Shown: piece by piece, positions 19,589 to 36,605 of the stretch | Layout: the number at the start of each line of letters is the position of its first letter | Position numbering within the stretch: position 1 is the stretch's first letter | Assembly: GCF_937863485.1 (NCBI RefSeq) | Contig: NZ_CALMFY010000113.1 | Span: forward strand, 129,860 to 193,859 | Length of the DNA stretch: 64,000 nucleotides | DNA from: an uncultured Nostoc sp. | GTDB taxonomy: Bacteria > Cyanobacteriota > Cyanobacteriia > Cyanobacteriales > Nostocaceae | Direction: 5' to 3' | Position numbers and translations under genes: made by a program | Notes under the pieces: model-generated | What the model was told of the DNA's origin: nothing | Seen by the model: the letters and a program-made list of their open reading frames with translations, nothing else | Databases searched by the model: none

Positions 19589-19683
19589 TTAAAAGTCTGC
19601 CAATTTTAGATTTTGAATTTTGGATTAAAGGAAAAATTTAAAATCTAAAATCTAAAATCCAAAACTGAACGACTCATAACTTT

Positions 19684-20133
19684 CTAAATGTCGCCGCGAA
19701 TTTCTTCTACAACGCCATCACGCAGAACAATTTCGACCTGCATTTTGCTAATCAGGTTATCTCCCGTCTCTACCCGGAAAAAGCCTTCCATTTGGAATTG
19801 GTTGACTTCCTGATCTTGCTGGAGAAACTGCACTTGCTGGAGATTTTGTAGCAACTGATTTTTCTGCTCTAGAAATTCACTTTTCTTTTGATTGACTTGG
19901 AGTTGGATATTGTCAATTTGTTGGAGAGTCTGGGGGCCAGGTGGTTGCAGACTCTGCTTTTGAATTGCAGCGATCGCTCTTTGTCCTTCAACGTCTAACT
20001 GTTGCAGTTGTTGGTCAAGTTGATTGATCTGCGTTTGCAGCTGCTGTTGTACTTCCTCTTTCCAGAGGGGAGTAACAATGACTTTGACGTTAACAACGCG
20101 TTTTAGGAGCAAATTAGATTTGGAGACATCCAT
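19684..20133 (-). CDS. YlqD family protein
   Basis: 149 aa. Residues 1-25 begin with the family motif LLLKRVVNVKVIVTPLWKEE. A long Gln-rich coiled coil follows (VQQQLQTQINQLDQQLQQLD and KKSEFLEQKNQLLQNLQQVQ). A small beta domain ends the protein (VETGDNLISKMQVEIVLRDG). YlqD proteins are conserved in Firmicutes and cyanobacteria but have no established function. It is 42 nt downstream of the acyl ligase gene on the same strand, and the two probably share a transcript. Confidence 0.85.
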   Translation of the reverse strand: MDVSKSNLLLKRVVNVKVIVTPLWKEEVQQQLQTQINQLDQQLQQLDVEGQRAIAAIQKQSLQPPGPQTLQQIDNIQLQVNQKKSEFLEQKNQLLQNLQQVQFLQQDQEVNQFQMEGFFRVETGDNLISKMQVEIVLRDGVVEEIRGDI

Positions 20134-20175
20134 AAATATTTCACGTTCACTCTTACTAGTTGGCAGGTGGAATAA

Positions 20176-22152
20176 TCAGGCAAACATGCCGTCAATAATA
20201 TCGTGATAGCGTTCCGTGACGACCTGTCGTCGAACTTTCAGTGTTTGTGTCATCAAGCCATTTTCGATGGAAAACGGTTCCAGAATGAGTTTGAATGTCC
20301 CGATGCGGTCATCTGGTCGAAAGCCTGGACGATTTTGCACTTCCCGATTCAATTCTTGCCGAAATAAATCCTGGATCATTCTACTCTCCAAGTCAATTTT
20401 TTGACTAGGTGAAGAAGTAACCTGATCATTTTGCCTATCCAGTGTCAGATTCTGACTTGCTGCCCATTTTTCTAGGGCTTCGACATTGGGGACAATTAAG
20501 GCTCCCAGGCTGCGCTGATCTTGACCGACGAGCATAATTTGATCGATATATGGCGATCGCAAACACGCATCTTCGATCGGCTGCGGCTCGATGTTTTCCC
20601 CATTAGTCAATACAATCGTATCCTTTGCTCTGCCAGTCAGCACCAAGTCGTCTTGTGGTGTCAGCCAACCCAAATCGCCGCTATCAAACCAACCTTCGGC
20701 GTCAATTGCTTTCGCTGTCGCTTCGGGATTTTGGTAATAGCCTTGCATAATCTGTGGCCCCCTCAACAATAACAAGCCTCGCTTCTCTACTGGCAAAGGC
20801 GCTTTTGTCTCAGGATCTACGATTTTAGCTTCTGTAGCCGGAAGTGGTAGCCCTGATGCACCAATCAAATTCCGCCAAGGACGCCGCACATGGGTAACAG
20901 GAGAAGTTTCTGTCAAGCCATAACCTTGCAAAATCTGCACACCAATAATTTCAAAGAAGTTATCTATGTGTCTGGGAAGCGCACCGCCGCCACTAATCAT
21001 CTGCTTAACTTGTCCTCCTGTGGCTTCTCGCACTTTGGCATAAACCAGTCGTTCTCCCAAGGCATGGAGAGGTAATAAAGCAGATGCTTGGATCTTAGCT
21101 GCTAATCGTTCGCCAGCTGAGGTATGAAGATTATTTAAACTCAATCCCTGAACAATTCGCCGCGCTTTGATGTATTTCTCACTATTGTCCAATAAAAAGT
21201 TAACTAGGCGTTGCTTATTTGCTGGTTGTTCGCGGAATTGCTTTTGAACTCCTTCATAAATCGATTCCCACAGGCGGGGTACACCCACCATGTAGTTAGG
21301 TTTAAATTCTCTCAAATCACCTTTGACAGAGCGCAAATTAGTATAAACTTGCGTGCAACCTTGAGATAGTAGGTAATATTCAACAGTCCGCTCGTAGCTG
21401 TGCCACGAAGGTAGAATACTGAGAACGATATCACCCGCGTTTGGTTGCAATACTGTGCCAAAGGTTGTCACTTGGTGCATCAAATTGTTATAAGATAGCA
21501 TTACACCCTTGGGTTTACCTGTGGTGCCAGAGGTGTAAATTAGGGTTGCCAGAGCGTCACGATTTTGCTTGACTGGCACAAAATTATGATTTACCCCAAT
21601 TTCAATCAACTGTGCAAAGTTCAGTACCTTTAGGGTTTCATTTGTTGGTGGTGCTTCATCCGAAAGTAAGATGACTACCTGAATTGGTAAATCTTGAAGG
21701 CGGTCTTGTAGTTTTTTAAATGTTTTTAAATCCTCAACAACTATTGCTGTGCTGCCACTATTAGCAATGATAAACAGCAGTTCTTCTTTTTCGGCTTGGG
21801 AGCTACGCACTGCATCAACTCCACCAGCAGTCATGATACCTTGATCGGCAATAAACCAGCGAGGACTGTTGTCAGAAATTAAGGAAATGCGATCGCCAAC
21901 TTTTATTCCCAACGCCTGCAACCCAGTAGCAAATAGTTGTATTTGCTCTGCTAACTGCGTATAAGTAATCACTACTTCTGGTTTAGCGTGAGGGCTGCGG
22001 AGGGCAACAACATCACCAAATCGTTGAGCTGCCAAAGGCCAAATTTCTGGCAGCGATTCCACATTTGTGTAATCTACCAACCGCTTTAATGCCTGGCGTT
22101 CTCGCTCACTGATGTTAGATAAAAAAGAAGACGCAGTTTGGGTTTTTGACAT
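20176..22152 (-). CDS. AMP-dependent long-chain acyl-CoA / acyl-ACP synthetase
   Basis: 658 aa. The enzyme activates fatty acids as acyl-adenylates and transfers them to CoA or ACP. In cyanobacteria the single Aas-type enzyme recycles free fatty acids into lipids. ANL-superfamily motifs are intact: TLIYTSGTTGKPKGVMLS (phosphate loop), QGYGLTETSPV, and WFDSGDLGWLTPQDDLVLTG. NGENIEPQPIE precedes the C-terminal hinge. The length and the motif HSYERTVEYYLLSQGC fit long-chain (FadD15-like) ligases. It is the first gene of a likely two-gene operon with ylqD. Confidence 0.92.
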   Translation of the reverse strand: MSKTQTASSFLSNISERERQALKRLVDYTNVESLPEIWPLAAQRFGDVVALRSPHAKPEVVITYTQLAEQIQLFATGLQALGIKVGDRISLISDNSPRWFIADQGIMTAGGVDAVRSSQAEKEELLFIIANSGSTAIVVEDLKTFKKLQDRLQDLPIQVVILLSDEAPPTNETLKVLNFAQLIEIGVNHNFVPVKQNRDALATLIYTSGTTGKPKGVMLSYNNLMHQVTTFGTVLQPNAGDIVLSILPSWHSYERTVEYYLLSQGCTQVYTNLRSVKGDLREFKPNYMVGVPRLWESIYEGVQKQFREQPANKQRLVNFLLDNSEKYIKARRIVQGLSLNNLHTSAGERLAAKIQASALLPLHALGERLVYAKVREATGGQVKQMISGGGALPRHIDNFFEIIGVQILQGYGLTETSPVTHVRRPWRNLIGASGLPLPATEAKIVDPETKAPLPVEKRGLLLLRGPQIMQGYYQNPEATAKAIDAEGWFDSGDLGWLTPQDDLVLTGRAKDTIVLTNGENIEPQPIEDACLRSPYIDQIMLVGQDQRSLGALIVPNVEALEKWAASQNLTLDRQNDQVTSSPSQKIDLESRMIQDLFRQELNREVQNRPGFRPDDRIGTFKLILEPFSIENGLMTQTLKVRRQVVTERYHDIIDGMFA

Positions 22153-22409
22153 AACACCTTACCTAAATATCGTAAACTGATCGTTTTCCAGTTTATTTGT
22201 TATTCTGCTACAATCACCGTCCTTATTATCCACATTCCCTTCTGTGTATGATAATTCCAGGAATTCCACGTTTATATTTACAAAAATTTATGTTAAACTT
22301 AGTTTACATAGATTGCAAGCAATAAATTGACTGAACATCAATCCTACACATATATTATGCTTGCATCTAAGAACAGCGATCACCTATTTTTGACAGGGGA
22401 TGATTACCT

Positions 22410-22655
22410 ATGAATTTGATAGAGGCTATACTGGTAACGCTAATCAACACTGCTGCTTGCATGGTATTTCCTAAGCTTGTAGCTATCCTTCTAGCTGATA
22501 AAACCAAACCTACTGAAGCGTTGCTAAATGGTTCAGAATTACAAACAGCCAAAGTGGAACTTACGAGTTTTCCTTATTGTACAGCTTACGCACTAACAAG
22601 CAGTCAATTCTGTAAATTCAGTCCTGATTTTTGTCCCAAGTGTTCTCCAAATTGA
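22410..22655 (+). CDS. Small hypothetical protein (uncertain)
   Basis: 81 codons from an ATG with a purine-rich AGGGGATGA about 8 nt upstream. The N-terminal 30 residues (NLIEAILVTLINTAACMVFP) could be one membrane helix. The last third contains six Cys/His-poor clusters ending CPKCSPN, which does not form a recognised motif. There is no homologue I recognise, and an overlapping antisense frame is also open, so this may be spurious. Confidence 0.35.
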   Translation: MNLIEAILVTLINTAACMVFPKLVAILLADKTKPTEALLNGSELQTAKVELTSFPYCTAYALTSSQFCKFSPDFCPKCSPN

Positions 22656-22813
22656 TGGGCTATTTGCCACTAAAAATTACTCGGTACTTCAGTCCAACTT
22701 TGTAGATATTTATATTGGGAATTGGAAAAATTTATTTTTTCTGACACCTATATTTTGCGTTCCAAGTAATAATTTATGCGTCTACTTAGTCAAGCGACGC
22801 CGAGTAGCCCGCA

Positions 22814-23003
22814 CAACTCTTGGAGACGCTCTTGCTAGCAAGATCCCCGTAGGAGTACGACAAGCTACAACTCTTCTCTACGAGAGGCTGCGCCAAGGAG
22901 AGGCTGGCGCTTAGGGCGTAGCTATGCCGCAGGCTTTACGACTGCGGCTCCATTGAGCGTACCCCTACGGGGATCTTGCTACGCGTAGCGTCTCCAAGAG
23001 TTG
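22814..23003. repeat. Long inverted repeat (two 45-nt arms)
   Basis: Arm 22814-22858 starts CAACTCTTGGAGACGCT and ends GTAGGAGTAC. Arm 22959-23003 is its reverse complement except for a 5-nt block and one further base (39 of 45 match by eye). The 100-nt centre is made of dispersed Nostoc-type words (CTACGAGAGGCTGCGCCAAG). The structure resembles a non-autonomous palindromic element. Confidence 0.8.
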
Positions 23004-23207
23004 CCGAGATGCTCAGTACAAGTCAGTCACCATCGTAGACATCGCTCATTCCACTATAATCGCTGAAACTCATATACTGTAAGCATTTATAATTTCTACA
23101 TAAGTCCATTGTCCAGTGCGTACATACTTTCACAGTGGCATCCTGTCGCTGATTATAGCACCTACTCATGAGCATGTGATTAAGCTGCTACGCAGAATTT
23201 CTTAGTC

Positions 23208-23343
23208 CCCAGCACGGACATAGCAAGTAAGATTGCGAAATTGCCGTGGGAAAACGTTGGATAATCAAACATCCAGACCTTTTTGAGTCTGGTAGGGTAA
23301 CATTATTGGGAGACAACCGATGTGTGAATTACCCACCCAATAA
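23208..23343 (+). other. Cluster of complementary segments, possible structured RNA with pseudoknot
   Basis: In order: CCCAGCACGG (23208-23217) against CCGTGGG (23244-23250); hairpin CCAGAC (23273-23278) with GTCTGG (23287-23292); GGGTAA (23295-23300) with TTACCC (23329-23334); and TTATTGGG (23303-23310) with CCCAATAA (23336-23343). The last two pairings interlock, as in an H-type pseudoknot. No known riboswitch class was recognised, and the strand is inferred from the downstream operon. Confidence 0.35.
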
Positions 23344-23944
23344 GGCTTCCGCTACATATTTGTTTGCTTGCCAGAATCAGACTCAGTATAATTACTAATT
23401 GAAGTTCAGGTCTACATATAACTAATATAACAATTAATATATTAGTTGTTAAATCTATTACATGAGGTCAAACAGCTTGTAATGCCCAAGCAGCCGGAAG
23501 TTGGTCAGTTTCTTAACAAACTTCACAAACTTCTAGGGTTAATGCAGGAAAAGTTTGCAGCAAACATTGTTTGTAATGAGCGATGAATCGCTCATAGCAA
23601 GTTCTATCAGGACTAAAGTCCTTACCCAACGGGAAAGTTAGTCTCTCATGGGGAGCCACTGCGGTGGACGGGTTAAGAGGCATAAAGGAGGCAGTGCGCC
23701 CAAGCGGTTTTCCGACTTGTCCCTTGCGCGTCTCCTGTCTTGAGAAGCAACTGCCGTCAAGTGGCGTGGAAACCCCCTTAGCGCTAGCCTCTTCCTTTGG
23801 GAGAAGACTGCGCTAAATCACTACAAACTTTAATTTATTTACGCCTAGCTACTTAGATTAAAAGAGGATTATATGCAAAAAAAATCACCAACTATCTTGA
23901 TTATCAACATATTCAACTATTAGTTCAAAATCAAAGGTTTTACC

Positions 23945-24286
23945 ATGATTCGGAAACAACTCACAGAATTTTCTTTAGAAGATGGCACAAAGTTTTTAGC
24001 TGAAGTTGATGAGTCAGAAAATAGCAATGCTCTTGTACGTGTTGCCAGACCAGACACTGGGCAAATGGTAGTTGAAGCTAAAAAGAGATTTGATGAAGTA
24101 TTAGATCAAATCCAACCTGTAGCTTCAGCAATTATTACCAAACTGAGTCAGCTTAATACACCTGCCGATGAGGTAGAGGTTAAGTTTGGTATTAAGTTAA
24201 ATGCTGGTGTGGGTGCAATTTTTACTTCTGTAGGTGGTGAAGCTAACTACGAAATTACCTTGAAATGGAAGCAAAACAAGGCATAG
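23945..24286 (+). CDS. Trypsin-co-occurring domain protein (CU044_2847 / Trypco1 family)
   Basis: 113 aa. The compact beta-rich protein has the family pattern: an N-terminal strand (EFSLEDGTKFLAEVDE), a central helix (FDEVLDQIQPVASAIITKLS) and the C-terminal VEVKFGIKLNAGVGAIF plus YEITLKWKQ. Such domains are found next to trypsin-like proteases in NTPase-based conflict systems and may be regulators or substrates of the protease. Here the protease gene starts 6 nt after its stop, an unusually tight coupling that supports a shared function. It is the first gene of the five-gene operon. Confidence 0.85.
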   Translation: MIRKQLTEFSLEDGTKFLAEVDESENSNALVRVARPDTGQMVVEAKKRFDEVLDQIQPVASAIITKLSQLNTPADEVEVKFGIKLNAGVGAIFTSVGGEANYEITLKWKQNKA

Positions 24287-24292
24287 TAACGT

Positions 24293-25186
24293 ATGGCAGC
24301 GAGTACAGATAATTATATTCAAACTTTTAGGTCAGCGATCGCCCGGATTTTTCATGCTAATGGTGCGGTAGTTGGTGGAGGTTTTTTAGTTTCTGGGCGA
24401 ACTCGAAATTACATCCTGACATGCGCTCACGTTGTTACCTCAGCTCTATCTTTACCAGAGGATATAGTTGAAGCTCCTAGTAATGATATCTACTTGGATT
24501 TCCCTCTAATTGCATCAGGACAACTACTAAAAGCTAAAGTTGTTTTTTGGCAACCTGTTGTCAACAATATATCAACCTCCGAACCTGAAGATATTGCTGG
24601 GTTGCAAATAGAAGGGCAGTTGCCTAAAGAAGCGCAACCTATCAAGCTGATCTCAGCTAATAACGTCTGGGAGCATCCTTTCCGCATATTCGGTTTTCCT
24701 CACGGACACAATGATGGCGTTTGGGCCGCAGGCGTGTTGCGAGACGGGCAAGGAAAGGGATGGGTGCAACTGGAAGACAGTAAGGTAACTGGCTACAGGG
24801 TAGAACCGGGTTTTAGTGGTGCGCCTATATGGGATGAAACCCTTGCAGGAGCTGTTGGTATGGCTGTGGCAACAGAGAAACAGCGAGAAGATATCAAGAC
24901 TGCTTTTATGATTCCTGCGGATGCATTGGTCAAAGCATGGGATGAAATAACCTTGCCGATTTCATCAAATGCATATACTCAGAATAATCCGAGCCGGGTA
25001 CAACAACTCAAAATCAAAACTTTGCAACAACGCTTTGAGGTTCTAAGTAGTGATTATGAGGCAGCTTACAATCAACTTAACTATACACTCAGCGCCAGCG
25101 ATCGCAATATCATCCAACGCCAAATAAATACCATACTACAAGAACTTGAGCGAGTAGAAAGCGAACTTAATGCCATTAGATATTAA
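24293..25186 (+). CDS. Trypsin-like serine protease with C-terminal coiled coil
   Basis: 297 aa. A chymotrypsin-fold (S1/HtrA-type) protease with an intact catalytic triad: His46 in ILTCAHVV, Asp100 in EPEDIAGLQ, and Ser175 in VEPGFSGAPIW. There is no signal peptide or PDZ domain, so it should act in the cytoplasm. Residues about 232-297 (QQLKIKTLQQRFEVLSSDYE, NTILQELERVESELNAI) are a helical coiled coil like the adaptor segments on proteins of STAND/NTPase conflict systems. It may dock onto the coiled coil of the next gene. An ATPase could activate it in response to a trigger; that is inference. Confidence 0.9.
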   Translation: MAASTDNYIQTFRSAIARIFHANGAVVGGGFLVSGRTRNYILTCAHVVTSALSLPEDIVEAPSNDIYLDFPLIASGQLLKAKVVFWQPVVNNISTSEPEDIAGLQIEGQLPKEAQPIKLISANNVWEHPFRIFGFPHGHNDGVWAAGVLRDGQGKGWVQLEDSKVTGYRVEPGFSGAPIWDETLAGAVGMAVATEKQREDIKTAFMIPADALVKAWDEITLPISSNAYTQNNPSRVQQLKIKTLQQRFEVLSSDYEAAYNQLNYTLSASDRNIIQRQINTILQELERVESELNAIRY

Positions 25187-25326
25187 TTTAATACCTAAAT
25201 GCTATGACAAATTCTTCAGATTTACGAAAAAACCATCAACAGTAGTTAATAAACAATTTAAAAACTGATATTGAAAGTATCAGCAACCAAATAGGGTGGA
25301 CGCTTAATGATGTAGATAAAAATAAA

Positions 25327-26862
25327 TTGCAAAGGCAACTTGACGATAAATTTGATGCATTAGAAAAAGCTGAATCAAAGTTAAACCAGCTAAATCGACA
25401 ATCTTTAGAGCAAGTTGATCCTGATAAAATCCCATTCACTAATCGCGATGCTGCAATTATTGAGATTACGGCAATTAATTCTCCTCCTTATCGTCTGTTA
25501 ACTGCTCCCGAAGGTTACGGAAAAACAGAATTTCTCAAACATATCTTGAGGCAATTTCAAAAATTACAATGGTGTTGTGCTTATGCTTCTATATCTAGTT
25601 ATGAAAGTATTGAAGACTTAGAAAAACGATTAGCAAGTTCTCTGCAAATTATGCTCCCAGAAGGGCATGAATTAAGTTGGGGAGAGCGTTTAGGTTTACT
25701 ATTGCATAGAAATTGGGCTAAATGGCAATCTCAGGATAAAAAAGGTATTGTGCTGCTAATCGATCTGGATGGAAGTGCCCCACAAAAGCAACGTTTAAAC
25801 GAAATTTTTAATGACTTTAAGGAATTTGCATGGAGAATTGAAAGATGTTTGAAAGAATTACAGTTCTTTAAAGATAATTCTCGGAGACTTCGAGTTGTGA
25901 TTGCAGCTCGCTGTCTGATTGATCTCCCCTTAGATCGGACTTTTCCTAAACTAACACTCTCTCCTTTTAACTGGGAAGTGATTCAGGATACAGCAACTAA
26001 ATATCTCAAGCCGATCGAGATGACTTCTGAAAGTCTTGCTCTACTAGCAGCACACTTACTGTATCTAACTGGCGGACATCCAGGGGGAATTGCTGAAGCA
26101 CTAAAAGTTTATCGAGGTGGCGGTTACACAGTTAATTTGTTTTTAAACAGTTATGGCAACCAATTATGGGAAAAAAACCTCAAAAAGTGTAGAGACCAAA
26201 TTAGAGAAAGCTTGACAAAAGAAAATAACTATCTATACGAATCCATTGAAAAATTAAGTATATTTCCCATAATAAATAGTAGTTGCATATTAAAGGAAGC
26301 TGTTCAGAGATTTAAGTTACCTTTCAGTGATGATAGTTTTAAATTAAATACTGAACTGACAAAGACATCTATTTTTACTCGTGACAAAACGATTATCAAA
26401 GATGGAATGACACGGCGGCTACTAGTTATTGGTCTTCTCCGAGAAAGTTCACCTGAGAGCTTTCAAGAGCTTTGTAAGGAAGCGGCTGAAATCTGCTTGA
26501 AATATATTCATGAACTGAAATCAAAGAATGATTCTGCTGTTGCAGGTACTTGGTCTATGCAGTATTTTTTTCAAAGTCTTCAGCAACATGCTGGATTTAT
26601 CAATTGTGGTGCTAATAGTCTGGCTTATCGACAAGAACTCCGCAAAACTTTCTTCGATAAAACTGTTGAAGAAACTCTGGGAATATTCTGCAATACAGAC
26701 CGAGAGCAAACCCATGAATTTCTGTCTACGCTTAAATCTGAAGTAGAACACGACTGGGAATTTCAGTTTCTTGTAAATTACTATTTGCATAATGACGAAT
26801 ATAATGATACACCCTATAGAGATTTAATTCAGAAGCTTGATGAAGCCATTCAAAATAACTAA
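25327..26862 (+). CDS. P-loop (AAA/STAND-like) ATPase with N-terminal coiled coil; upstream amber codon
   Basis: 511 aa from TTG 25327. The P-loop is APEGYGKTEF (residues 60-69), Walker B is VLLIDLDGS (142-150), and an Arg-sensor-like VVIAARCLIDL follows. The C-terminal half contains a winged-helix-like region (GMTRRLLVIGLLRESS) and helices. The same frame is open upstream to ATG 25204 except for one TAG (25243-25245). The extra residues (LINNLKTDIESISNQIGWTL) extend the N-terminal coiled coil, which resembles that at the end of the protease. The intact protein probably began at 25204, 17 nt after the protease stop. Translation may now start internally. Confidence 0.8.
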   Translation: MQRQLDDKFDALEKAESKLNQLNRQSLEQVDPDKIPFTNRDAAIIEITAINSPPYRLLTAPEGYGKTEFLKHILRQFQKLQWCCAYASISSYESIEDLEKRLASSLQIMLPEGHELSWGERLGLLLHRNWAKWQSQDKKGIVLLIDLDGSAPQKQRLNEIFNDFKEFAWRIERCLKELQFFKDNSRRLRVVIAARCLIDLPLDRTFPKLTLSPFNWEVIQDTATKYLKPIEMTSESLALLAAHLLYLTGGHPGGIAEALKVYRGGGYTVNLFLNSYGNQLWEKNLKKCRDQIRESLTKENNYLYESIEKLSIFPIINSSCILKEAVQRFKLPFSDDSFKLNTELTKTSIFTRDKTIIKDGMTRRLLVIGLLRESSPESFQELCKEAAEICLKYIHELKSKNDSAVAGTWSMQYFFQSLQQHAGFINCGANSLAYRQELRKTFFDKTVEETLGIFCNTDREQTHEFLSTLKSEVEHDWEFQFLVNYYLHNDEYNDTPYRDLIQKLDEAIQNN

Positions 26863-26876
26863 CTCAGGAGTCTATT

Positions 26877-29666
26877 ATGTCTGAACTAGATAAATTAGAG
26901 TTTGTTGGTCGTGAAGAACATCTAAATCGAATTATTTCCCTTGTTCGGGAGCCTAATCTGCATATCGTTTTGGTGGAGGGTAGAGGTGGAATTGGCAAAA
27001 CTTGGTTGCTTCGTGCATTACAATCCCGCCTAAACCAAATTCAAATTGGAACAAGTGAAATTATTGATTGTGATACCCCTGTTTTTAATGATGCAGAAGA
27101 TTTATACACTCAAATCGCCAAACAATTATACGATTATACATATAAAGAATGGTTGCTCCGATTACGACAACTGCGAGAAGATGAAAACCGCCTCAGTCTA
27201 ACCGCATACCAAGAGGAACGGAAACAAATTGAAAAGTTCCTAGTCGATGAAATTAATCGAAAATCCAGCCAACAGAGATTAGTATTTTTAATTGATACGG
27301 TTGAGAAGTTAGGACAACCAGAGATAAGAGCGGAAGTTTGGGAATATATTGCTAATCTATGCCAGCAACTAGACAACACCGTATTTATTTTAGCAGGTCG
27401 CCCTAGTATTGCCCGTCAAATTCTGGAAAAGTCATTCAAAGAAGAAGAATTAACTTATTTGGAGTTAAATGAATTTACTCGTGAGGATGTGCAAACGTAC
27501 ATTCTTTCCAAGGAGGAGCAGCTTCACTTTACTCTTGGGAAAGACTTAGTTGAAAAGATTATAGTTCTTTCTGGTGGCAGCCCCATCATGATTGAATTTG
27601 GAGTAGAGTATGCTTATCGGGAAGTCATACCAGATTGGTTAGAGAGTGAAGATATAGAAACTATTCCAGGTAGGTTGGAAAAAATTGGTGGATTTGAAGC
27701 TGAGATGGTTCGACATATTACGCAGCTTCGGACATCAATGGATCGGCTAACCCTGTTACTTTCACGTATCTACCCATTAGATAGCTCTGATATTGCTAAT
27801 TTATTAGAACTATCTACAGAAGATGCTCAAAAATTATTTATTGATGCACAGAGCTACTTTTTTATCAAACCAGTAATAGGTGGTTCTCAAATAGCATTGC
27901 ATGATATTGTGCGAGACTTGGTTGATAAATATGTATGGCCAGATATTGACCCAGATATGGAATGGAGAAAACGAGATAGTCGGATTGCTGCTAAATATTT
28001 TGAGCAAAAAGATTATGAGCTAGGCCCACATAAAAGGATATTAGAAGTTCAACGTTATTCTGATGATTCTCATAAAGTTGCTAACATCGAGTTTATGATT
28101 GAAGAAGTGAAGCAACTGCGGGAATTCAATACTACACGATGGCTATCGAATGCTTTATACGCCGATCCGATAACAGGCTTTGAAACTTGGCATGAAGTTA
28201 CTGATAGGATACGCAGTCAATCCAAGAAATATAGCTTTGTGGAAAAATTATTGATAGTTGCGAAACAGTTTGAAAAAGAGCTAACCCCTGATCAAAGATT
28301 TAAACTTGTTATTCTTGAAGCAAAGCTTGTTTACGCCCTTGAAGGCAAGATTAAAACAGAAAATGAGGTGAGAAAGCTAGAGGAAATTCTCTCAAAACAA
28401 TCTTCTAATTATTCTTATCAAGCAGATATTTATAATGTCTTGGGAATGCTGAATGCCAAGTTACATCTTTATGATAAAGCATTGAAATATCAGCAAGAGT
28501 GTTTATCCCTAGTTCAAAGCAACAAGCTATCATCTGCTATACCTCGCGTAGCTAACCTAGTTGGTTATCTTTATCGACAACTCAACAAGTTTAACGAAGC
28601 TGAAAAATATTACAAACTAGGTTGGGATGCTGCTATGGAAGTTGACACACCTGACAAAGGGTTAACTCAAGTTATGGCTAGCATTCAGAATAATTTGGGA
28701 TTCTTGTACGGACAAGAAAAAGATTATTTAAAGGCTGAACAGTGTTTTAAGGCTGCTATTGATATGTGGTCGAGTGTTGAGAGTGAACGCGAAATAGCCC
28801 ACGCCGAAATTGCCTCTGCTACTATTTCGGTAGAGAATGGTAACTATATTAAAGCTAAACAGCTACTTGAACGAGCCTTAAGCCGTTGCGACAATGAAGA
28901 AAACGATCATCGAATATTGTGTAGGGCATACTTTCAATTAGGCTTAAATCAGTGGTTTAGTGCCGAGGTAGTAAATGAAGCCGTTTGGGATGTGACACAG
29001 GTAGAGTGGGATCTCAATCTGCTAAGTCTCGCTCAAGATGCTTTAGAAAAAAGCCTGAAATTGGCAGAGAAATACGGAATTGAAGAAGAATTACCTAGAA
29101 TTTTGCACCAAACTGCCAGTGTCTATTGGCATCTTGGGTTTCAAAAGTGCGATCGCTCGCTGCAAGAACAAGCTCTAAAACTCAATCATCGGTCTTATCA
29201 GACTAGTCTAGAATACAATGATACGCGATATGCTATTGATAGCCTGGTAGGCAAAGCAGAGTTTGATTATTATGCAAAAGCCTATGAGCATATTTCAGAT
29301 TATGCACGAGAACTTAGCGATCGCTTCCAATCCTATGAAAATATCCATCAACTATACTTTGGTCGGATATTACGGATAGAAGGTGATGTCGCTTTTCAAG
29401 AAGCTAACTACGATTTTGCTTTTAGGAAATATGCTCTAGGAATACCCAAAATCTTTCAGGATGGAGGTTTCGGGCCATATTCGAGCCAACATGAGCTAAA
29501 TCTGCTCCAAAAGAAAATCGAACGCTTGCCTATAGAACTTTCTAAAACTCTGATCCAGCAACTAAAATCTCGGTGGAATGATCAGAAAGCTCTCAAGGAA
29601 TGGTGTGATCAACAAATGTTTCTGACTAGAATACGTGCCACAAAACAGCCATCTTCTCATGTTTAG
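26877..29666 (+). CDS. STAND NTPase with TPR repeats
   Basis: 929 aa. Residues 9-180 hold a signal-transduction NTPase module: FVGREEHLNRI, P-loop VEGRGGIGKT (33-42), Walker B RLVFLIDTVEK (134-144), and sensor ILAGRPS (171-177). A winged helix follows (about 290-350). From about residue 470 to the end are TPR-type repeats (SYQADIYNVLGMLNAKLHLY, YLYRQLNKFNEAEKYYKLGW, NNLGFLYGQEKDYLKAEQCF). STAND proteins oligomerise when their repeat domain senses a ligand and then activate effectors. A GGAG ribosome-binding site precedes the ATG. Its stop overlaps the next start, indicating translational coupling to the radical SAM gene. Confidence 0.92.
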   Translation: MSELDKLEFVGREEHLNRIISLVREPNLHIVLVEGRGGIGKTWLLRALQSRLNQIQIGTSEIIDCDTPVFNDAEDLYTQIAKQLYDYTYKEWLLRLRQLREDENRLSLTAYQEERKQIEKFLVDEINRKSSQQRLVFLIDTVEKLGQPEIRAEVWEYIANLCQQLDNTVFILAGRPSIARQILEKSFKEEELTYLELNEFTREDVQTYILSKEEQLHFTLGKDLVEKIIVLSGGSPIMIEFGVEYAYREVIPDWLESEDIETIPGRLEKIGGFEAEMVRHITQLRTSMDRLTLLLSRIYPLDSSDIANLLELSTEDAQKLFIDAQSYFFIKPVIGGSQIALHDIVRDLVDKYVWPDIDPDMEWRKRDSRIAAKYFEQKDYELGPHKRILEVQRYSDDSHKVANIEFMIEEVKQLREFNTTRWLSNALYADPITGFETWHEVTDRIRSQSKKYSFVEKLLIVAKQFEKELTPDQRFKLVILEAKLVYALEGKIKTENEVRKLEEILSKQSSNYSYQADIYNVLGMLNAKLHLYDKALKYQQECLSLVQSNKLSSAIPRVANLVGYLYRQLNKFNEAEKYYKLGWDAAMEVDTPDKGLTQVMASIQNNLGFLYGQEKDYLKAEQCFKAAIDMWSSVESEREIAHAEIASATISVENGNYIKAKQLLERALSRCDNEENDHRILCRAYFQLGLNQWFSAEVVNEAVWDVTQVEWDLNLLSLAQDALEKSLKLAEKYGIEEELPRILHQTASVYWHLGFQKCDRSLQEQALKLNHRSYQTSLEYNDTRYAIDSLVGKAEFDYYAKAYEHISDYARELSDRFQSYENIHQLYFGRILRIEGDVAFQEANYDFAFRKYALGIPKIFQDGGFGPYSSQHELNLLQKKIERLPIELSKTLIQQLKSRWNDQKALKEWCDQQMFLTRIRATKQPSSHV

Positions 29667-31164
29667 TAAAAAAATTGCTCAACCCAAAATTTTAGTTTCT
29701 CTCAATTCTACCTACGTACCCACTGGGCAATGCGATTGTGATGGAGGGGACTGTGCCTGTGACTTATCCCCTTTGCCAGAATTAAGCTCAGATATCCGAT
29801 TATCTTTGGGGATGTTGGAGACAGAGTTTATGAGAGTTCCCAACTCGCAGATTATGAATCTAGATGATACTTATTCTATCTGTTATGGTACTCATCATCA
29901 AGTAGCAGTTATGAATAAATCAGCATTATATTTACTAGATAAATTTACAAATCCTCATAAATTAAATGATATTGCAATAGAGCATTCTCAAATTGACCCA
30001 ACAGACTTACAGACAGCGATTCAGGAACTATATCAAGCACATTTGATTGCACCAAAAAATAATTGCTCATTTAACCAAAATGAAATACCAGAAACTTTAA
30101 CAGCATGGTTGCATATCACCGATCGTTGTAATTTAAGATGTGACTACTGCTACCTTCCTCATCTAGCAAAGGATATGTCAATAGATATAGGTAGAGCAGC
30201 TCTTGAATCTACATTTCGCTCTGCCACCTTAAATCGTTACCGCCGCGTCAAACTGAAGTATGCAGGAGGAGAGGCATTACTATGCTCTCCTTTAATTAAG
30301 GATCTCCATTTGTATGCTCAATCCCTTAGCAAAGAAAGAGACATCATATTAGATGGAGTCGTTCTCAGTAATGGAACATTGATTACGCCTGAGATTATTG
30401 GGATGCTGCAAACATTGAATCTGCGTCTAATGATTTCACTAGATGGATTATCAAATTTCCACAATATCCAACGATCGTATGCAGGCGGAAAGGGTTCGTT
30501 TCAAGATGTTGAACGAGGTATTAAAATTGCTTTGCAAAATGGTCTTATACCAGATATTTCCATTACAGTTAGTGGGCGTAACGCAGAAGGATTACCCGAT
30601 CTGATTGAATGGATATTGGAGCATAATTTGCCCTTTAGTTTAAATTTTTATCGTGAAAATGAACTATCAGCTTCTTACGAAGACTTGCAACTAGAAGAAT
30701 CTCGGCTGATTGAGGGAATGTTGGCAGCGTTCAAAGTTATTGAATTGAAATTACCTAATCAAAGTTTACTAGGTTCATTGATTGATCGTGCCAATTTATC
30801 GTCTGCTCATAAACGAACTTGTGGAGTTGGGCAAAGCTATCTTGTATTTGATTACCAAGGGCAAATTGCCAAATGCCAGATGCAGCTACATAAAACTGTA
30901 TCCTCAGTTGACAATCAAGATCCTTTAACTGTTGTGCGACAAGATAAAGCAGGTATTCAGAATTTGTCAGTTGAGGAAAAAGAAGGCTGTCGTACATGTG
31001 AGTGGAAATACTGGTGTACAGGTGGTTGTCCTCTGGCAACGTTTAAGGCTACAGGTCGTTACGATATTCAATCTCCAAATTGCAATATTTACAAAGCTCT
31101 CTATCCTGAAGCTCTCCGACTAGAGGGTTTACGCCTTCTCAAATATAGTTACCCAACTAACTAA
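29659..31164 (+). CDS. Radical SAM/SPASM peptide-modifying enzyme
   Basis: 501 aa from ATG 29659; an in-frame GTG at 29635 would lie further inside the previous gene. The ATG overlaps the STAND-TPR stop by 8 nt. The radical SAM cluster motif is CNLRCDYC (Cys157, 161, 164), followed by YAGGEALL. A full SPASM domain has Cys388, Cys406, then CRTCEWKYWCTGGC (444, 447, 453, 457) and Cys475, for two auxiliary clusters. Residues 75-132 look like a PqqD-like winged peptide-recognition domain. Residues 15-40 carry an unusual QCDCDGGDCACD motif. Relatives modify ribosomal peptides by C-C, ether or cyclophane links. No precursor gene is obvious. Confidence 0.92.
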   Translation: MFSKKIAQPKILVSLNSTYVPTGQCDCDGGDCACDLSPLPELSSDIRLSLGMLETEFMRVPNSQIMNLDDTYSICYGTHHQVAVMNKSALYLLDKFTNPHKLNDIAIEHSQIDPTDLQTAIQELYQAHLIAPKNNCSFNQNEIPETLTAWLHITDRCNLRCDYCYLPHLAKDMSIDIGRAALESTFRSATLNRYRRVKLKYAGGEALLCSPLIKDLHLYAQSLSKERDIILDGVVLSNGTLITPEIIGMLQTLNLRLMISLDGLSNFHNIQRSYAGGKGSFQDVERGIKIALQNGLIPDISITVSGRNAEGLPDLIEWILEHNLPFSLNFYRENELSASYEDLQLEESRLIEGMLAAFKVIELKLPNQSLLGSLIDRANLSSAHKRTCGVGQSYLVFDYQGQIAKCQMQLHKTVSSVDNQDPLTVVRQDKAGIQNLSVEEKEGCRTCEWKYWCTGGCPLATFKATGRYDIQSPNCNIYKALYPEALRLEGLRLLKYSYPTN

Positions 31165-31167
31165 GTA

Positions 31168-31280
31168 GCTAAAACCAGGCAGTAGGGGAGAATTTATCCT
31201 ATCACTACTAAATAGGGTTTCTAGCAACTTAAGTTGACTTTGTTCGCGCCTATAGACCTCTAGTTTAGGCGATCGCCAAT
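31168..31280 (-). pseudogene. 3'-terminal remnant of a Uma2 gene
   Basis: 113 nt aligning without gaps to 32606-32718, the 3' part of the Uma2 gene at 32576, at about 88% identity by eye. It is a decayed, truncated relative in the same orientation. The two copies form direct repeats that flank the MFS transporter gene, marking an old duplication or insertion boundary at the end of the 23.9-31.2 kb operon. Confidence 0.8.
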
Positions 31281-31373
31281 AACTTATTTATTATCGGAAC
31301 TCCGTTATGGATAAACCACAATGTCATAACTGTGACCTCCTACTTGTTGTTTTAATCAAAAACGAGAGTTTGA

Positions 31374-32564
31374 TTATTTATTTGTTCTTGCTGTAGTTAT
31401 TTTAGGTCTGACGATAATAAAAAATGCCAGCAGAGTAAAAACTAACATTTGCCAAATCACCAAATTCCAGCCACCAAGATGCCAGCATAATAGACCAATG
31501 CTAGTACCTACAGCACCGCCGATAAAATAGGTAGTCATGTAAACTGTGTTGATGCGACTATTCGATTCAGCATCAAGAGTGTATATCCTTGCAACATTAG
31601 TGACCTGCGTTGCCTGTACACCTACATCTAGTAACAATACAGCAACAGCGATCGCTATCGCAGAATTAGCAGCAATTTTAGCAATTACTAAGCTTGCAAT
31701 CACGAGCGATACAGCAAGAGTCAAGGAACGTTGGGAGTTACCTTGATCAGCTAATTTACCAAAAACTGGTGCCATTAATGCACCTGCGATCGCCACAAAG
31801 CCATACATCCCAATTGTGTCAGATTGAAAATTAAAAGGCACTCCACTTAAATGGAAAGTTAGCGTTGTCCAAAATGAGCAAAAGACACCAAACAATAACC
31901 CACCAATTAAAGACGTTTCTCTTAAAAGTGAAAAACGTTTTAATTGTTGAAGCGTTGATTTTAATAAATCTAAATAATCACCACTATATTCATTCTTGAC
32001 ATTAGGCAAGTATATCTGTAGTAAGATAGTAATAATTAAAATCATTCCTGCTGAAAATGCATATACATAACGCCAACTCAACCATTCAGCAATATATCCA
32101 CTAAAAACCCTTGCTCCTAAAATTCCGATCAATATACCAGTAAAAATGTTGCCTACAGTTTTGCCTGTAGTTACTCTATCTATACTTGCTGCTAAGGGAA
32201 GAATAACCTGAGCTGAGACTGTTGCAATCCCAATTGCTACGCTCAATATCCAAACCTCGACGATGTTTTGTGAAAACGTCATGAGGATCAACAAACAGAA
32301 CAAACATATCAGTAAGCAAAGAATTAATTTTTTCTTGTTGATTTTATCGCCCAAGGGGATTAAAAAGAAAAGCCCAAAACCGTAACCAACTTGCGTAAGC
32401 ACAGATATGCTACCCGCTTCGCCTTCACTGACTCCAAAAGAAGATGCAATATCTTTGAGGATTGGCTGATTATAATAAACGTTGGCAACACAGACACCAG
32501 CTGCGATTGCCATAATCAGTACCTGGACTTTAGTTAATCCGTCACTTGAGATTTGTTTTTGCAT
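31374..32564 (-). CDS. MFS transporter (drug-efflux type, DHA1-like)
   Basis: 396 aa, about twelve transmembrane helices. The protein begins TKVQVLIMAIAAGVCVANVY. The motif-A loop between TM2 and TM3 is IPLGDKINKKKLILCLL. The second half has TLAVSLVIASLVIAKIAANS and AVGTSIGLLCWHLGGWNLVI. The substrate is unknown. It lies 12 nt downstream of the Uma2 gene at 32576 and converges on the radical SAM operon. It is flanked by direct repeats of Uma2 sequence and may be a later insertion. Confidence 0.9.
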   Translation of the reverse strand: MQKQISSDGLTKVQVLIMAIAAGVCVANVYYNQPILKDIASSFGVSEGEAGSISVLTQVGYGFGLFFLIPLGDKINKKKLILCLLICLFCLLILMTFSQNIVEVWILSVAIGIATVSAQVILPLAASIDRVTTGKTVGNIFTGILIGILGARVFSGYIAEWLSWRYVYAFSAGMILIITILLQIYLPNVKNEYSGDYLDLLKSTLQQLKRFSLLRETSLIGGLLFGVFCSFWTTLTFHLSGVPFNFQSDTIGMYGFVAIAGALMAPVFGKLADQGNSQRSLTLAVSLVIASLVIAKIAANSAIAIAVAVLLLDVGVQATQVTNVARIYTLDAESNSRINTVYMTTYFIGGAVGTSIGLLCWHLGGWNLVIWQMLVFTLLAFFIIVRPKITTARTNK

Positions 32565-32575
32565 TCAAACTAAAT

Positions 32576-33148
32576 TTATACAGGAAAAAACTGGTTTACA
32601 GTACAGCTAAAACCAGGCAATAAAGGAGAAATTATAATATCGCTACTAAATAGGGTTTCTACTAATTTAAGTTGATTTTGTTCGCGCCGATAGACCTCTA
32701 GTTTACGCGATCGCCAATCAGCAATCCAATATTCTTTTACTCCTCTGGAAGAATAAAGTTTAAGTTTAGCTTCCTTATCCCGTCTTTGGTCTGAGTTGCT
32801 AAGAGACAAAACTTCAACTACTAAATCTGGTGCGCCAGTTAAATGTCCCGCTTCATCCAATGTTAGCGCCAAGGTTTCTTTAGTAGCCCAAACTACATCA
32901 GGAATCACATTATCTGATTCTGAAAACAAAACGCCGGGGTTGATCACAGCTTCTCCTAAACCAGTAGACTCTGACCAAATGTTAAGCTGTTGGAAAATTC
33001 TGCCACAAGTTTGCTGATGTTTAAAGTGAGGTGCCCTAGTCACAAATAATTCTCCATCAACTATCTCGTAGCGCGTCCCTTCATTTTCTGGTAAAAGTTC
33101 CAGGTCGTGAATTGTCCAGCGTACTCCTGTATTAAGCATCTGACTCAT
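32576..33148 (-). CDS. Uma2 family (DUF820) PD-(D/E)XK nuclease-like protein
   Basis: 190 aa with classical Uma2 features: RYEIVDGELFVTRAPHFKHQ near residue 27, the nuclease core PDLVVEVLSLSNSDQRRDKE (Asp/Glu and Lys), and LYSSRGVKEYWIADWRSRKL. The function is unknown in general. The 3' end (32606-32718) has a partial duplicate at 31168-31280. The protein is of a different Uma2 subgroup from those at 7.8 and 36.6 kb. Confidence 0.9.
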   Translation of the reverse strand: MSQMLNTGVRWTIHDLELLPENEGTRYEIVDGELFVTRAPHFKHQQTCGRIFQQLNIWSESTGLGEAVINPGVLFSESDNVIPDVVWATKETLALTLDEAGHLTGAPDLVVEVLSLSNSDQRRDKEAKLKLYSSRGVKEYWIADWRSRKLEVYRREQNQLKLVETLFSSDIIISPLLPGFSCTVNQFFPV

Positions 33149-33368
33149 GGCTAATTTCTTTAATCTTGCTCTTGTATTTTAATTATAAGATTTAAGTTTA
33201 GCTTCCTTATCTAGTCTTTCAAAAAATAAATATATGAGTAAATAGTATGACTAAAACAAAATGCACCAAACAAAATGCAAAACCAGCTACCCAGTAATTG
33301 TACTTTCTAAAAAAATAATTACGAGATAGTGATATTTTTAAGTTTTTTTACTCGTCCTAAGCAAATTC

Positions 33369-35528
33369 TCACTTGCGATTTTCACGCCGCCATTTACCCC
33401 GCACTAAACGAATTTCATCAAAACTGTAGCTTTCACCTAGTTGTTCTCGAATTGGCGTTAAAGATATATCACCAAGCACTTCTAAAACTTGCCAAATTTT
33501 TTGTTGATGTTCAAGAGGTACTAACTGATTTATGTCTACAGGCTGATTTTTTTCAATCAAATCTGTCAAATGGCGAATAATTGTTGTGGGGCGAATGTTG
33601 CGTTTTTGAGCAATTTCATTAACACTCAAACCTTGTTTATGTAATTGTAATGTGAATATTTCTGTGTCAGAAGGTAAGCTAACAGAGGGTGTAAAACTAA
33701 CTTGGGGTGGATCTATCAAACCTTTTTCTTGGCGGTAGGCGCGAATTTCTGCAAGGAATTTATCGCCATATTGGGAAAGTTTGTGACTACCTACGCCCGA
33801 AAGTTTACCAAATTCGATTAGTGTTGTAGGTTGTACCTGTGCCATCAATTTCAAGGTAGAATCCTGGAAGACAACGTAAGGTGGTACAGATTGTTCATCA
33901 GCAAGTTGTTTACGGAGCGATCGCAACCTCTGCATTAATATCTCTGCTTCAGCAGCTTTTTCACTCCCTTCTTCCCAAGTAATCTTCTGTGCTACAGGAA
34001 CAGCAAGAGAAACTGTGTGCTGTCGCCGCATCACTTCCCAACTGAAGGCGTTAAGTTTCAAAACTGAGTAACCATCGCTAGTCTGTTCTAGCAAGCCTTG
34101 ATGTAAAAGCGATCGCCCCAGCATCCGCCACTCATCTACACTCTTATCTTTGCCAATACCATAGGTAGAAAGTTTATCGTGTTCGTTTTGGGTGATTTTC
34201 TGGTTTTTTGCCCCCCGTAACACATCAATAATGTGCAGCATCCCAAATCTTTCTTTACAACGCGCCACACAAGATAAAAACTTCATGGCTTCAATTGTCC
34301 AGTCTTGCATTGGTTTGGGATGACGGCAATTATCGCAGTTACCGCAATTCCCACCAAAACGTTCCCCAAAATAACCTAGCTGAATTGTGCGTCGGCAAAC
34401 AGTACCTTCGGCATAGTCAATTACCTGACGCAGTTGTTGTTTAGCAATCAACTGTTCTTGAGGGTCAGTTTTTTGGTTAATACTCCATTCAATAGTTTTG
34501 ATATCACTGAAACTGAAAAAAAGTGTACAACGTGAAGGTTCACTATCCCTTCCCGCCCTACCTGATTCTTGATAATAACTTTCTAAATTCCGTGGTAAAT
34601 CAAAGTGAATTACTAACCGCACATCTGGCTTATTAATTCCCATACCAAAGGCAATTGTTGCCACCATGACGCGCACATCATCTCGAATAAATCGAGTTTG
34701 ATTGCTGCTGCGTTCTTCATCAGTTAATCCGGCATGATAGGACAAAGCGGAAATATGATCATTTTGCAGTTTAAAGGTGAGTTCATCAACTTTTTTGCGC
34801 GTCAGACAATAAATAATTGCTGAACCCTCAGTTTCCCGAACGAGTTCTAATAATTCAGCGTAAGCAGACTTGCTTTTAGAACGAACTTCGTAGTAAAGAT
34901 TTTGGCGGTTAAAGCTAGCAATATGGATACTGGGTTGCTTTAGCCCTAGTTGTTGGATAATATCAGCACGGACGCGATCGGTTGCTGTGGCGGTGAGGGC
35001 GAGGGTAGGGACATCAGGATAGCGTTTCCGCAAAGATTTCATCTGCCGGTATTCTGGGCGGAAGTCGTGTCCCCACTCAGAGACGCAGTGGGCTTCGTCA
35101 ATGGCAAAAGCTGCAATCCCAATTTTTTCCTTGACTAAATCGAGAAACGGCAGAAATCTTTCACTCAAAAGACGTTCTGGGGCGACGTAAAGTAATCTAA
35201 CTTTACCGCTGAGGATGGCTTCTTCCCGCGATCGCACCTTATAGGGATTCAGACTACTATTTAGAAATGTGGCAGCAATGTTATTATTTCGCAGTCCTTC
35301 CACTTGATCTTGCATCAAAGCGATTAATGGTGACACTACCACCGTTAAACCTTTTTTGATCAATGCAGGTAACTGAAAGCACAGAGATTTTCCTCCCCCT
35401 GTAGGCATGACAATCAATAAATCTCGATTTTGCAGCGCATCTTCGATAATTTGCCGTTGTCCGGGGCGGAATTTGTCGTAACCGAAGTGATATTTTAGCG
35501 CTTGTTCGAGATTGGGGTACTGAAGCAT
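33369..35528 (-). CDS. recQ: ATP-dependent DNA helicase RecQ
   Basis: 719 aa. RecQ unwinds recombination and replication intermediates. Motif I is MPTGGGKSLCFQLPAL and motif II AIDEAHCVSEWGHDFRPEY, with the aromatic-rich loop. Motif III is LALTATAT and motif VI YYQESGRAGRDSEPSRC. The zinc-binding RQC cysteines appear as CRRTIQLGYFGE followed by CGNCDNC. An HRDC domain (PPYVVFQDSTLKLMAQVQPT) and a C-terminal helix-turn-helix (SVNEIAQKRNIRPTTIIRHL) complete the usual architecture. It is monocistronic. Confidence 0.96.
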   Translation of the reverse strand: MLQYPNLEQALKYHFGYDKFRPGQRQIIEDALQNRDLLIVMPTGGGKSLCFQLPALIKKGLTVVVSPLIALMQDQVEGLRNNNIAATFLNSSLNPYKVRSREEAILSGKVRLLYVAPERLLSERFLPFLDLVKEKIGIAAFAIDEAHCVSEWGHDFRPEYRQMKSLRKRYPDVPTLALTATATDRVRADIIQQLGLKQPSIHIASFNRQNLYYEVRSKSKSAYAELLELVRETEGSAIIYCLTRKKVDELTFKLQNDHISALSYHAGLTDEERSSNQTRFIRDDVRVMVATIAFGMGINKPDVRLVIHFDLPRNLESYYQESGRAGRDSEPSRCTLFFSFSDIKTIEWSINQKTDPQEQLIAKQQLRQVIDYAEGTVCRRTIQLGYFGERFGGNCGNCDNCRHPKPMQDWTIEAMKFLSCVARCKERFGMLHIIDVLRGAKNQKITQNEHDKLSTYGIGKDKSVDEWRMLGRSLLHQGLLEQTSDGYSVLKLNAFSWEVMRRQHTVSLAVPVAQKITWEEGSEKAAEAEILMQRLRSLRKQLADEQSVPPYVVFQDSTLKLMAQVQPTTLIEFGKLSGVGSHKLSQYGDKFLAEIRAYRQEKGLIDPPQVSFTPSVSLPSDTEIFTLQLHKQGLSVNEIAQKRNIRPTTIIRHLTDLIEKNQPVDINQLVPLEHQQKIWQVLEVLGDISLTPIREQLGESYSFDEIRLVRGKWRRENRK

Positions 35529-35813
35529 AGCGATCGCTTTTTCGGGGGCTGTCTGCGTGAGTAGTTATGAAGATATCAGGATTTTAACTCACATCATCGG
35601 CAGCTTTGGTCAGACATGCGTTTCTGTTGGCGATGTCTACGACGGGCTACCCCTACGCCCGCTCATCAATTATCATACATGATGCGATGTCTACGACGGG
35701 CTACCCCTACGCTTGACTTTCAAGACAGTCGCTACAAAATTGGCGATCGCACTATTGCCCTGGCGTCCGGCTCAATCAATGCTATCATTAGCACAAATAT
35801 TCTCACTTTAGGG
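35529..35813. repeat. Direct repeats of a dispersed 28-bp Nostoc element upstream of higBA
   Basis: Two identical 28-bp copies (CGATGTCTACGACGGGCT followed by ACCCCTACGC) at 35631-35658 and 35685-35712. Partial copies recur at about 36554 and 62538. This is a dispersed repeat family. The region also holds the promoter of the toxin-antitoxin pair; there is no gene in it. Confidence 0.75.
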
Positions 35814-36516: not shown

Positions 36517-36605
36517 GAAAATTGAAGATAAAACTGTCGCTACAAGATTAGCGATGTCTACGACGGGCTTTGCGCTGTCGCACTTCCCAAAATCGTGCGA
36601 TCGGC

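Follow-up and report, generated by a model that had tools for sequence, protein, structure and literature searches.

Bacterial defence systems of the nucleotide-binding leucine-rich repeat (NLR)-like or STAND type, such as Avs and bNACHT, have swappable effectors in one slot, where a STAND ATPase is accompanied by TIR, SIR2, CHAT or protease effectors. Two of these effector domains, TIR and SIR2, are NAD-consuming. In the portions of Kaur et al. (2020; PMC7159879) used here, EAD domains follow a rule by which one copy sits on a core component and more copies on effector or signalling domains, often in adjacent genes; the FxSxx-COOH (FxsA/FxsB/FxsT) and VMAP ternary systems both pair a STAND ATPase carrying tetratricopeptide repeats (STAND-TPR) with a radical SAM/SPASM enzyme, and a figure legend gives peptide-modification parts and Trypco-trypsin pairs as mutually exclusive. 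The radical SAM enzyme PapB, according to the part of PMC9413430 used, joins Cys to Asp or Glu in CXnD (n = 0-6) and did not cross-link a peptide in which Cys and Asp were transposed. Here we analysed a 64,000-nucleotide stretch of the genome of an uncultured Nostoc sp. (the window), in which five genes on the + strand, encoding a Trypco1 protein, a trypsin-like protease, an ATPase, a STAND-TPR ATPase and a radical SAM/SPASM enzyme, form what is, judging from the sequence, probably a modular NLR-like (STAND) conflict operon with the radical SAM enzyme in its core. Among open-licence PubMed Central papers, taken without supplements, no title or abstract start that we found describes this system, and the operon is apparently undescribed as a modular conflict system. 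Its features, in window coordinates, are as follows:

23945..24286, + strand: gene 1, Trypco1 (trypsin-co-occurring domain 1) protein, 113 amino acids (Pfam PF19493, E = 7.1e-27)
24293..25186, + strand: gene 2, trypsin-like protease, 297 amino acids (Pfam Trypsin_2, E = 1.3e-12)
24992..25177, + strand: putative EAD9 adaptor ("plug") at the C-terminus of the protease (PF19962, E = 7e-24)
25204 (or 25327)..26862, + strand: gene 3, EAD9-ATPase (AAA-type Pfam matches; in-frame TAG in the window genome)
25216..25392, + strand: putative EAD9 adaptor ("socket") at the N-terminus of gene 3 (PF19962, 55.8 bits with one TAG inside)
25243-25245, + strand: in-frame TAG within the EAD9 of gene 3 (a sense codon there in 14/14 relatives)
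26877..29666, + strand: gene 4, STAND-TPR ATPase, 929 amino acids (Pfam AAA_22, nSTAND1, NACHT and TPR_12 over their cut-offs)
29659..31164, + strand: gene 5, radical SAM/SPASM enzyme, 501 amino acids (Pfam Radical_SAM, E = 7.6e-15)
29731..29769, + strand: Cys-Asp segment CDCDGGDCACDLS, gene 5 residues 25-37 (recognised by its low dN/dS, the ratio of non-synonymous to synonymous substitution rates, and by column invariance)

With the VMAP and ternary systems, as presented in the portions of PMC7159879 used here, the operon shares a Trypco1 gene beside a trypsin-like peptidase gene, STAND ATPases, and an EAD duplicated on a core component and on the enzyme next door. It follows the EAD rule of that paper because EAD9 occurs on the core ATPase (gene 3) and on the enzyme of the adjacent gene (gene 2), and twice in the genome. 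Unlike those systems, its core consists of an ATPase, a STAND-TPR ATPase and a radical SAM enzyme, and, contrary to the exclusivity stated in the legend, it holds both a Trypco-trypsin pair and a part of the peptide-modification type. An earlier note on this DNA had pointed to kinship with FxsT and FxsB of the FxSxx-COOH systems, with which the operon does have in common a STAND-TPR ATPase plus a radical SAM/SPASM enzyme. That it is a variant of these systems or of the VMAP ternary system is, however, very improbable, as the enzyme and the STAND ATPase fail the family models. Gene 5 scored 44.2 bits with the FxsB model TIGR04269 (cut-off 370), and gene 4 hit 11 NCBIfam families (E <= 0.1), of which the FxSxx TPR model NF040586 (cut-off 300 bits) was not one; searched against the genome, this model gave at least 29 matches (65 of 78 candidates scored), none of them at gene 4. 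No open reading frame (ORF) of 25-160 amino acids with its low coordinate in 18000-38000 had an FxSxx or RxD ending, no vWA, MoxR or metallopeptidase domain was found among the ten flanking ORFs scanned, no search having covered the remaining flanking ORFs or the rest of the genome, and the Cys-Asp motif lies inside the enzyme itself.

The radical SAM-SPASM half of gene 5 resembles PapB in that this model (NF047865) gave its best NCBIfam score, though far below the cut-off (140 against 340 bits; 114-143 bits in five relatives). It differs from PapB, whose substrate is a separate precursor, in that the gene 5 family has Cys-Asp repeats in its own N-terminus and that several loci have Asp before Cys and none close after. 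PapB chemistry as such was rejected given this unsuited order, and a PapB-like possibility alone was retained. The operon is like Avs and bNACHT in combining a STAND ATPase with TIR, SIR2, CHAT or protease effectors, but it has a conserved radical SAM/SPASM partner, and its effector appears to be linked via a second ATPase, either by fusion or through EAD9.

The five genes and their conservation in Nostocaceae

The spacing reported in the earlier note is borne out: the first four genes are separated by gaps of 6, 17 (to ATG 25204) and 14 nucleotides, and gene 5 overlaps gene 4 by 8 nucleotides from ATG 29659. Profile searches agreed with the identities it gave to genes 1, 2, 4 and 5 (Trypco1, Trypsin_2, AAA/STAND with TPRs, and Radical_SAM). 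Its "coiled-coil ATPase", gene 3, is indeed an ATPase, with the motifs GGHP and EGYGKT (the latter a P-loop outside the strict pattern), but the supposed coiled coil is an EAD9 domain, still matched at E = 3.8e-13 when gene 3 is read from after the TAG that breaks the frame starting at ATG 25204. The C-terminal EAD9 of the protease had been overlooked. The protease carries the motifs TCAH at 43-46 (His46) and GFSG at 173-176 (Ser175), and the adjoining Trypco1 and peptidase genes are also paired in 14/14 relatives, gene 1 being partial in two of them. Gene 4 shows the P-loop (Walker A at 35), the STAND/NACHT-type core (GGSP at 233) and the superstructure repeats (TPRs at about 515-690) of STAND NTPases. 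Gene 5 has CxxxCxxC at 157 and a SPASM-like tail with seven cysteines at 388-475, a pattern that we compared with what we take to be the SPASM consensus; its motif cysteines are invariant in 11 aligned sequences. From about residue 79 the enzyme profile aligned with the radical SAM protein of PDB 5wgg (E = 6e-26), which we take for the SCIFF maturase CteB, whose peptide-recognition domain would lie in the aligned region. In PADLOC, residues 159-325 of gene 5 matched positions 4-159 of 257 of the viperin model pVip (58 bits, E = 3e-16), a partial match (167 amino acids) in an output that gives no cut-off and for a protein that also has a SPASM tail; gene 2 partially matched the LmuA model (E = 1e-7).

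The EAD9 domains of gene 3 (read from after the TAG) and of the protease are 40% identical over 45 amino acids. They are the only two EAD9 matches in the genome (E <= 0.001; 7.5 Mb, 99.67% complete) and both lie in the operon, which suggests a private plug and socket. Trypco1 has four matches in the genome, three of them beyond the operon (contigs C113, 93640-93936; C103, 31023-31295; C166, 97394-97573), where no EAD9 was found and which presumably belong to other Trypco1 systems.

A contig scan with the radical SAM protein yielded 22 loci, 14 cyanobacterial and 8 from Chloroflexota (cited by our own L numbers). We recovered the five genes in the same order in 14/14 cyanobacterial loci, every gene being full-length in 11 of them; gene 1 was shortened in L005 and L012 and gene 2 interrupted in L010. 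Including the window, damage affects 4 of the 15 copies and falls in gene 1, in gene 2 or in the EAD9 of gene 3. In genes 4 and 5 only the final few codons differ (some relatives have a stop in gene 4 at codon 923-924 of 929, and L015 has one in gene 5 at 497 of 501). Median pairwise dN/dS values for genes 1 to 5 were 0.136, 0.179, 0.175, 0.169 and 0.158, indicating purifying selection on each (window plus up to ten relatives, giving 11, 11, 11, 8 and 10 sequences; relatives whose aligned stretch contains a stop were left out). The recurrent order together with these ratios of 0.14-0.18 argues that the grouping is not due to chance. The proposal in the earlier note of a single conserved operon of NTP-dependent conflict-system parts thus stands after comparison of neighbourhoods across cyanobacteria and Chloroflexota, in which neither of the outcomes it had named as fatal, rare co-occurrence of the genes or a radical SAM gene with unrelated neighbours, was seen.

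The operon is accessory: it was present in 5 of 145 genomes of the family and in at least 3 of 386 of the phylum, its own genome included in both (three best candidates were scored per genome in the phylum and in the Chloroflexota tally below, which are therefore lower bounds). An upstream gene for an AMP-binding enzyme is common to 10/14 loci and a downstream MFS gene to 6/14. In two of four enzyme-less genomes of the same genus, the flanking genes are separated by 1.4 and 1.9 kb in which no operon gene was found, forming an empty site; of the other two, one has a protease fragment near a contig end, and the stretch of the other lacks an MFS gene. The fragment (93% identical; L129, 2669-2839), in a genome without a radical SAM match, lies beside the conserved flank and may be a remnant or a cut operon. 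The search for plasmid carriage gave no match in 72,556 plasmids, and that for viral carriage a single 23% identical protein, which served as the outgroup of the tree.

Chloroflexota relatives and the effector slot

The radical SAM enzyme family was found in at least 43 of 400 Chloroflexota genomes (alignment of 11 enzymes, E <= 1e-60). A STAND-TPR homologue lies near the enzyme in 47/52 Chloroflexota loci, upstream on the same strand within 800 nucleotides in 40, at 986 nucleotides in L091, and convergent downstream in six (at 1.8 kb in L085). These 52 loci comprise a set of 47 (6 from the initial scan, L072 and 40 fetched) and 5 added later, the fragments L023 and L024 being left out. Of the upstream genes recovered with the STAND profile, 33 had gone into building it. 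Neither the six convergent cases nor the four full loci added later had, and these four loci all agree. Four of the loci without a STAND gene (L073, L096, L100 and L142) lie at contig ends. Enzyme and STAND distances were correlated (r = 0.708, n = 48 loci, 0 of 1999 permutations as high), also among the 42 Chloroflexota loci alone (0.687). In the enzyme tree, the Nostocaceae formed one clade (100/100), placed next to the Chloroflexota locus L075 (96/91). The simplest reading is thus one transfer between the phyla, with an unsure root because the branch of the viral outgroup is very long.

The genes upstream of this core vary. Among 71 of the 101 upstream proteins, Pfam domains included at least six TIR_2, six SIR2_2, two CHAT and one Schlafen AlbA_2, as well as at least one EAD7, one FGE-sulfatase and eight Trans_reg_C; the scan left out 30 proteins (second STANDs, near-duplicates and genes judged unrelated) and covered 25 of 28 families, so that these counts are lower bounds. 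The following arrangements were seen:

L021: TIR fused to a gene-3-like ATPase
L016: TIR protein
L017: Schlafen and TIR ATPases
L076: CHAT fused to an ATPase
L081: SIR2 and TIR proteins
L091: EAD7-CHAT
L094 and L095: SIR2

Large proteins (719-819 amino acids as called) head the operons of L022, L072, L074, L108, L111 and L112. A hydrophobic stretch lies close to the start of those in L022, L072 and L108, and no Pfam match at E <= 0.01 was obtained for the four that were scanned (L022, L072, L074 and L108); these large proteins are possible membrane sensors or effectors.

The reading of the operon as a conflict system relies chiefly on the variable TIR, SIR2 and proteolytic domains that lie upstream of a single conserved core. 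This core would comprise gene 3 as a helper ATPase, the STAND-TPR ATPase of gene 4 as sensor and hub, and the radical SAM/SPASM enzyme of gene 5, and the effector slot would be interchangeable, filled by Trypco1 and a trypsin-like protease in Nostocaceae and by TIR, SIR2, CHAT or Schlafen domains in Chloroflexota. In such a system, the protease would dock on gene 3 through the paired EAD9 domains; a signal from an invader would reach the TPRs, upon which the ATPases would exchange nucleotide and oligomerise, and EAD9-EAD9 contacts would cluster the protease, leading to cleavage of host proteins and to growth arrest or cell death. The radical SAM enzyme would mature the complex, most likely by modifying Cys-rich segments of its own N-terminus, or else the partner STAND. 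We infer immunity from the parts and from the variety of effectors; we likewise infer the oligomerisation, the EAD9 docking and the substrate of the enzyme. The earlier note had supposed that stimulus-triggered ATPase oligomerisation activates either the protease or a modified peptide: the former arm is plausible, the paired EAD9 domains offering a concrete link, whereas the latter is not supported, no convincing separate peptide gene having been found near the enzyme.

The Cys-Asp segment and the search for a peptide gene

The segment CDCDGGDCACDLS sits ahead of the region of gene 5 aligned with 5wgg. In 13 Nostocaceae sequences, its pooled dN/dS was 0.009. The same ratio was 0.377 and 0.435 for the flanks, 0.341 for the recognition-like region and 0.110 for the catalytic part. 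Of the 13 columns of the segment 12 were invariant, compared with 29% and 28% of columns in the flanks (L015 was left out of these two analyses and of the tree). In the Chloroflexota enzymes the flanks diverge widely and DCxC recurs, in a single or up to four copies, some of them in the linker that precedes the radical SAM part (L016, L018, L074). In 47 Chloroflexota sequences, DC was counted 86 times, against a mean of 14.9 and a maximum of 29 in shuffles, and DCAC 38 times, against a mean of 0.0 and a maximum of 2. This enrichment test ignores relatedness, and the dN/dS contrast in Nostoc is the stronger one. DCAC was present in 27/47 and DC in 41/47 of these enzymes, and some lineages have DCR or DEC instead; ORFs and starts were called mechanically in Chloroflexota, so that the N-termini may be over-long. 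These results suggest that the segment serves as a substrate carried by the enzyme itself, binds metal or acts as a redox switch.

In 47 Chloroflexota and 4 Nostoc loci, we searched all six frames up to 8 kb from the enzyme for stretches of 20-180 amino acids that contain DCxC or three [DE]C. No convincing precursor with a Cys motif emerged; a motif-less or distant precursor would fall outside this search. Many of the stretches recovered lie inside large ORFs and seven outside them (L003, L014, L018, L019, L077, L090, L103). The stretches of L003 and L019 also occur in Nostoc loci with the same flank and in enzyme-less genomes, those of L014, L077 and L103 match themselves alone, and that of L090 matches itself and, weakly, L092. 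The stretch of L018 (6542-6808), a DCAC ORF between two STAND genes, is the sole one that resembles the enzyme N-terminus, being 58% identical to the L016 enzyme over 45 amino acids; it is likely a broken copy of the radical SAM N-terminus, although it may be a free peptide. An ORF of 81 amino acids in the window (22410-22655, + strand) is found in 10/14 loci, yet it belongs to the flank because it is present in 4/4 genomes without the enzyme. It adjoins the AMP-binding gene, and more distant second copies exist in L003, L006, L008, L011 and L019.

Another conserved feature lies 0.4 kb 5' of gene 1:

23416..23536, + strand: conserved DNA element of about 120 nucleotides (blastn matches in most of the 14 relatives)

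This element contains a short inverted match and accompanies the operon at other genomic sites too (L010, L012); it is a possible regulatory region of the operon. An ORF of 46 amino acids at 23446-23586 was rejected as a peptide gene: its DNA is conserved, but the frame has stops in L004, L007 and L010. Promoter and terminator scans gave no excess over shuffles, and no RNA family matched in positions 19000-36000 of the window. Farther downstream, a gene at 35616-36113 (+ strand) encodes a HigB/RelE-like toxin domain (Pfam HigB_toxin, E = 1e-29) of toxin-antitoxin type, and one at 37923-39605 (- strand) an eCIS core domain (E = 8e-34); the latter is adjoined by genes for two AAA_35 proteins (39790-41352 and 41483-42859), with which it forms a possible contractile-injection-type or conflict-related cluster.

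Alternative readings and significance

Several alternatives to a working conflict operon were weighed. A RiPP-type operon (for ribosomally synthesised and post-translationally modified peptides), in which the radical SAM enzyme and the protease would mature a secreted or signalling peptide encoded elsewhere under regulation by the STAND protein, seems improbable to us. SPASM enzymes usually modify peptides, the enzyme profile aligns with 5wgg and a protease is encoded in the operon, but no convincing precursor was found near the enzyme once the seven stray Cys-motif stretches were dismissed (a genome-wide precursor search was not made), and the TIR, SIR2, CHAT or Schlafen domains in the Chloroflexota slot are difficult to square with peptide export. 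Decay of the operon in the window genome is a closer call, with chances just short of even. The TAG would then uncouple or abolish the gene 3 ATPase, leaving nothing functional here even if the relatives are. Since the socket EAD9 holds this in-frame TAG, which is not present in the 14 relatives, the window copy may be impaired, and gene 1 or 2 is damaged in three relatives; against decay, the TAG is a single lesion that may be a sequencing error or be suppressed, and gene 3 remains open from 25246 to 26862, with 538 codons and a first listed downstream start at TTG 25327.

The role of the Cys-Asp segment admits two readings. It could be a metal site or a redox-switch dithiol, the target of the enzyme then being its STAND partner, some small molecule or an unlinked peptide, and activation perhaps being coupled to oxygen or iron status, an option with a substantial but less than even chance. 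CxC pairs are common metal or redox ligands, the segment is under tighter constraint than the catalytic part, DCR or DEC replaces DCAC in some Chloroflexota lineages while 6/47 enzymes have no DC at all, and the weak viperin match of gene 5 is to a small-molecule enzyme. A number of DCxC copies ranging from 0 to 4, some of them in the linker, is on the other hand unlike a site of fixed geometry, and the closest enzyme models, PapB being the best, are those of peptide maturases. We more tentatively propose, as a possible but rather unlikely outcome, that gene 5 carries its own substrate, its Cys-Asp repeats, fused in front of the recognition-like region, being cross-linked in cis. The modified N-terminus would then act as a licensing or alarm signal that the neighbouring STAND-TPR protein reads.

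Some observations weigh against the modular conflict operon that we favour. The function of the genes was deduced from sequence; gene 3 is interrupted in the window copy; and in PADLOC single domains were matched in part, with no model spanning the operon core. In Chloroflexota, L087 is a complete locus without a nearby STAND gene and a real exception among the five lacking one, and 47/52 is a raw count, uncorrected for STAND genes that may lie beside random genes. Trypsin was not among the 25 of 28 families examined for the Chloroflexota upstream genes, and gene-3-like ATPases were found outside Nostoc in L020, L021 and L075 alone of 47 loci, the first two being part of the profile. Finally, the DNA-binding Trans_reg_C domain on 8 of the 71 upstream proteins makes a regulatory role possible.

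If the conflict operon is what it appears to be, the finding adds to STAND-based conflict systems one whose effectors vary and whose conserved core includes a radical SAM enzyme. The clean EAD9 pair, the only two copies in the window genome, allows a direct test of the adaptor hypothesis. The idea of a maturase that is its own substrate is also testable and would connect RiPP chemistry with immune signalling: if true, a self-modifying RiPP-like maturase would lie in the core of an NLR-like immune system common to Chloroflexota and Nostocaceae.

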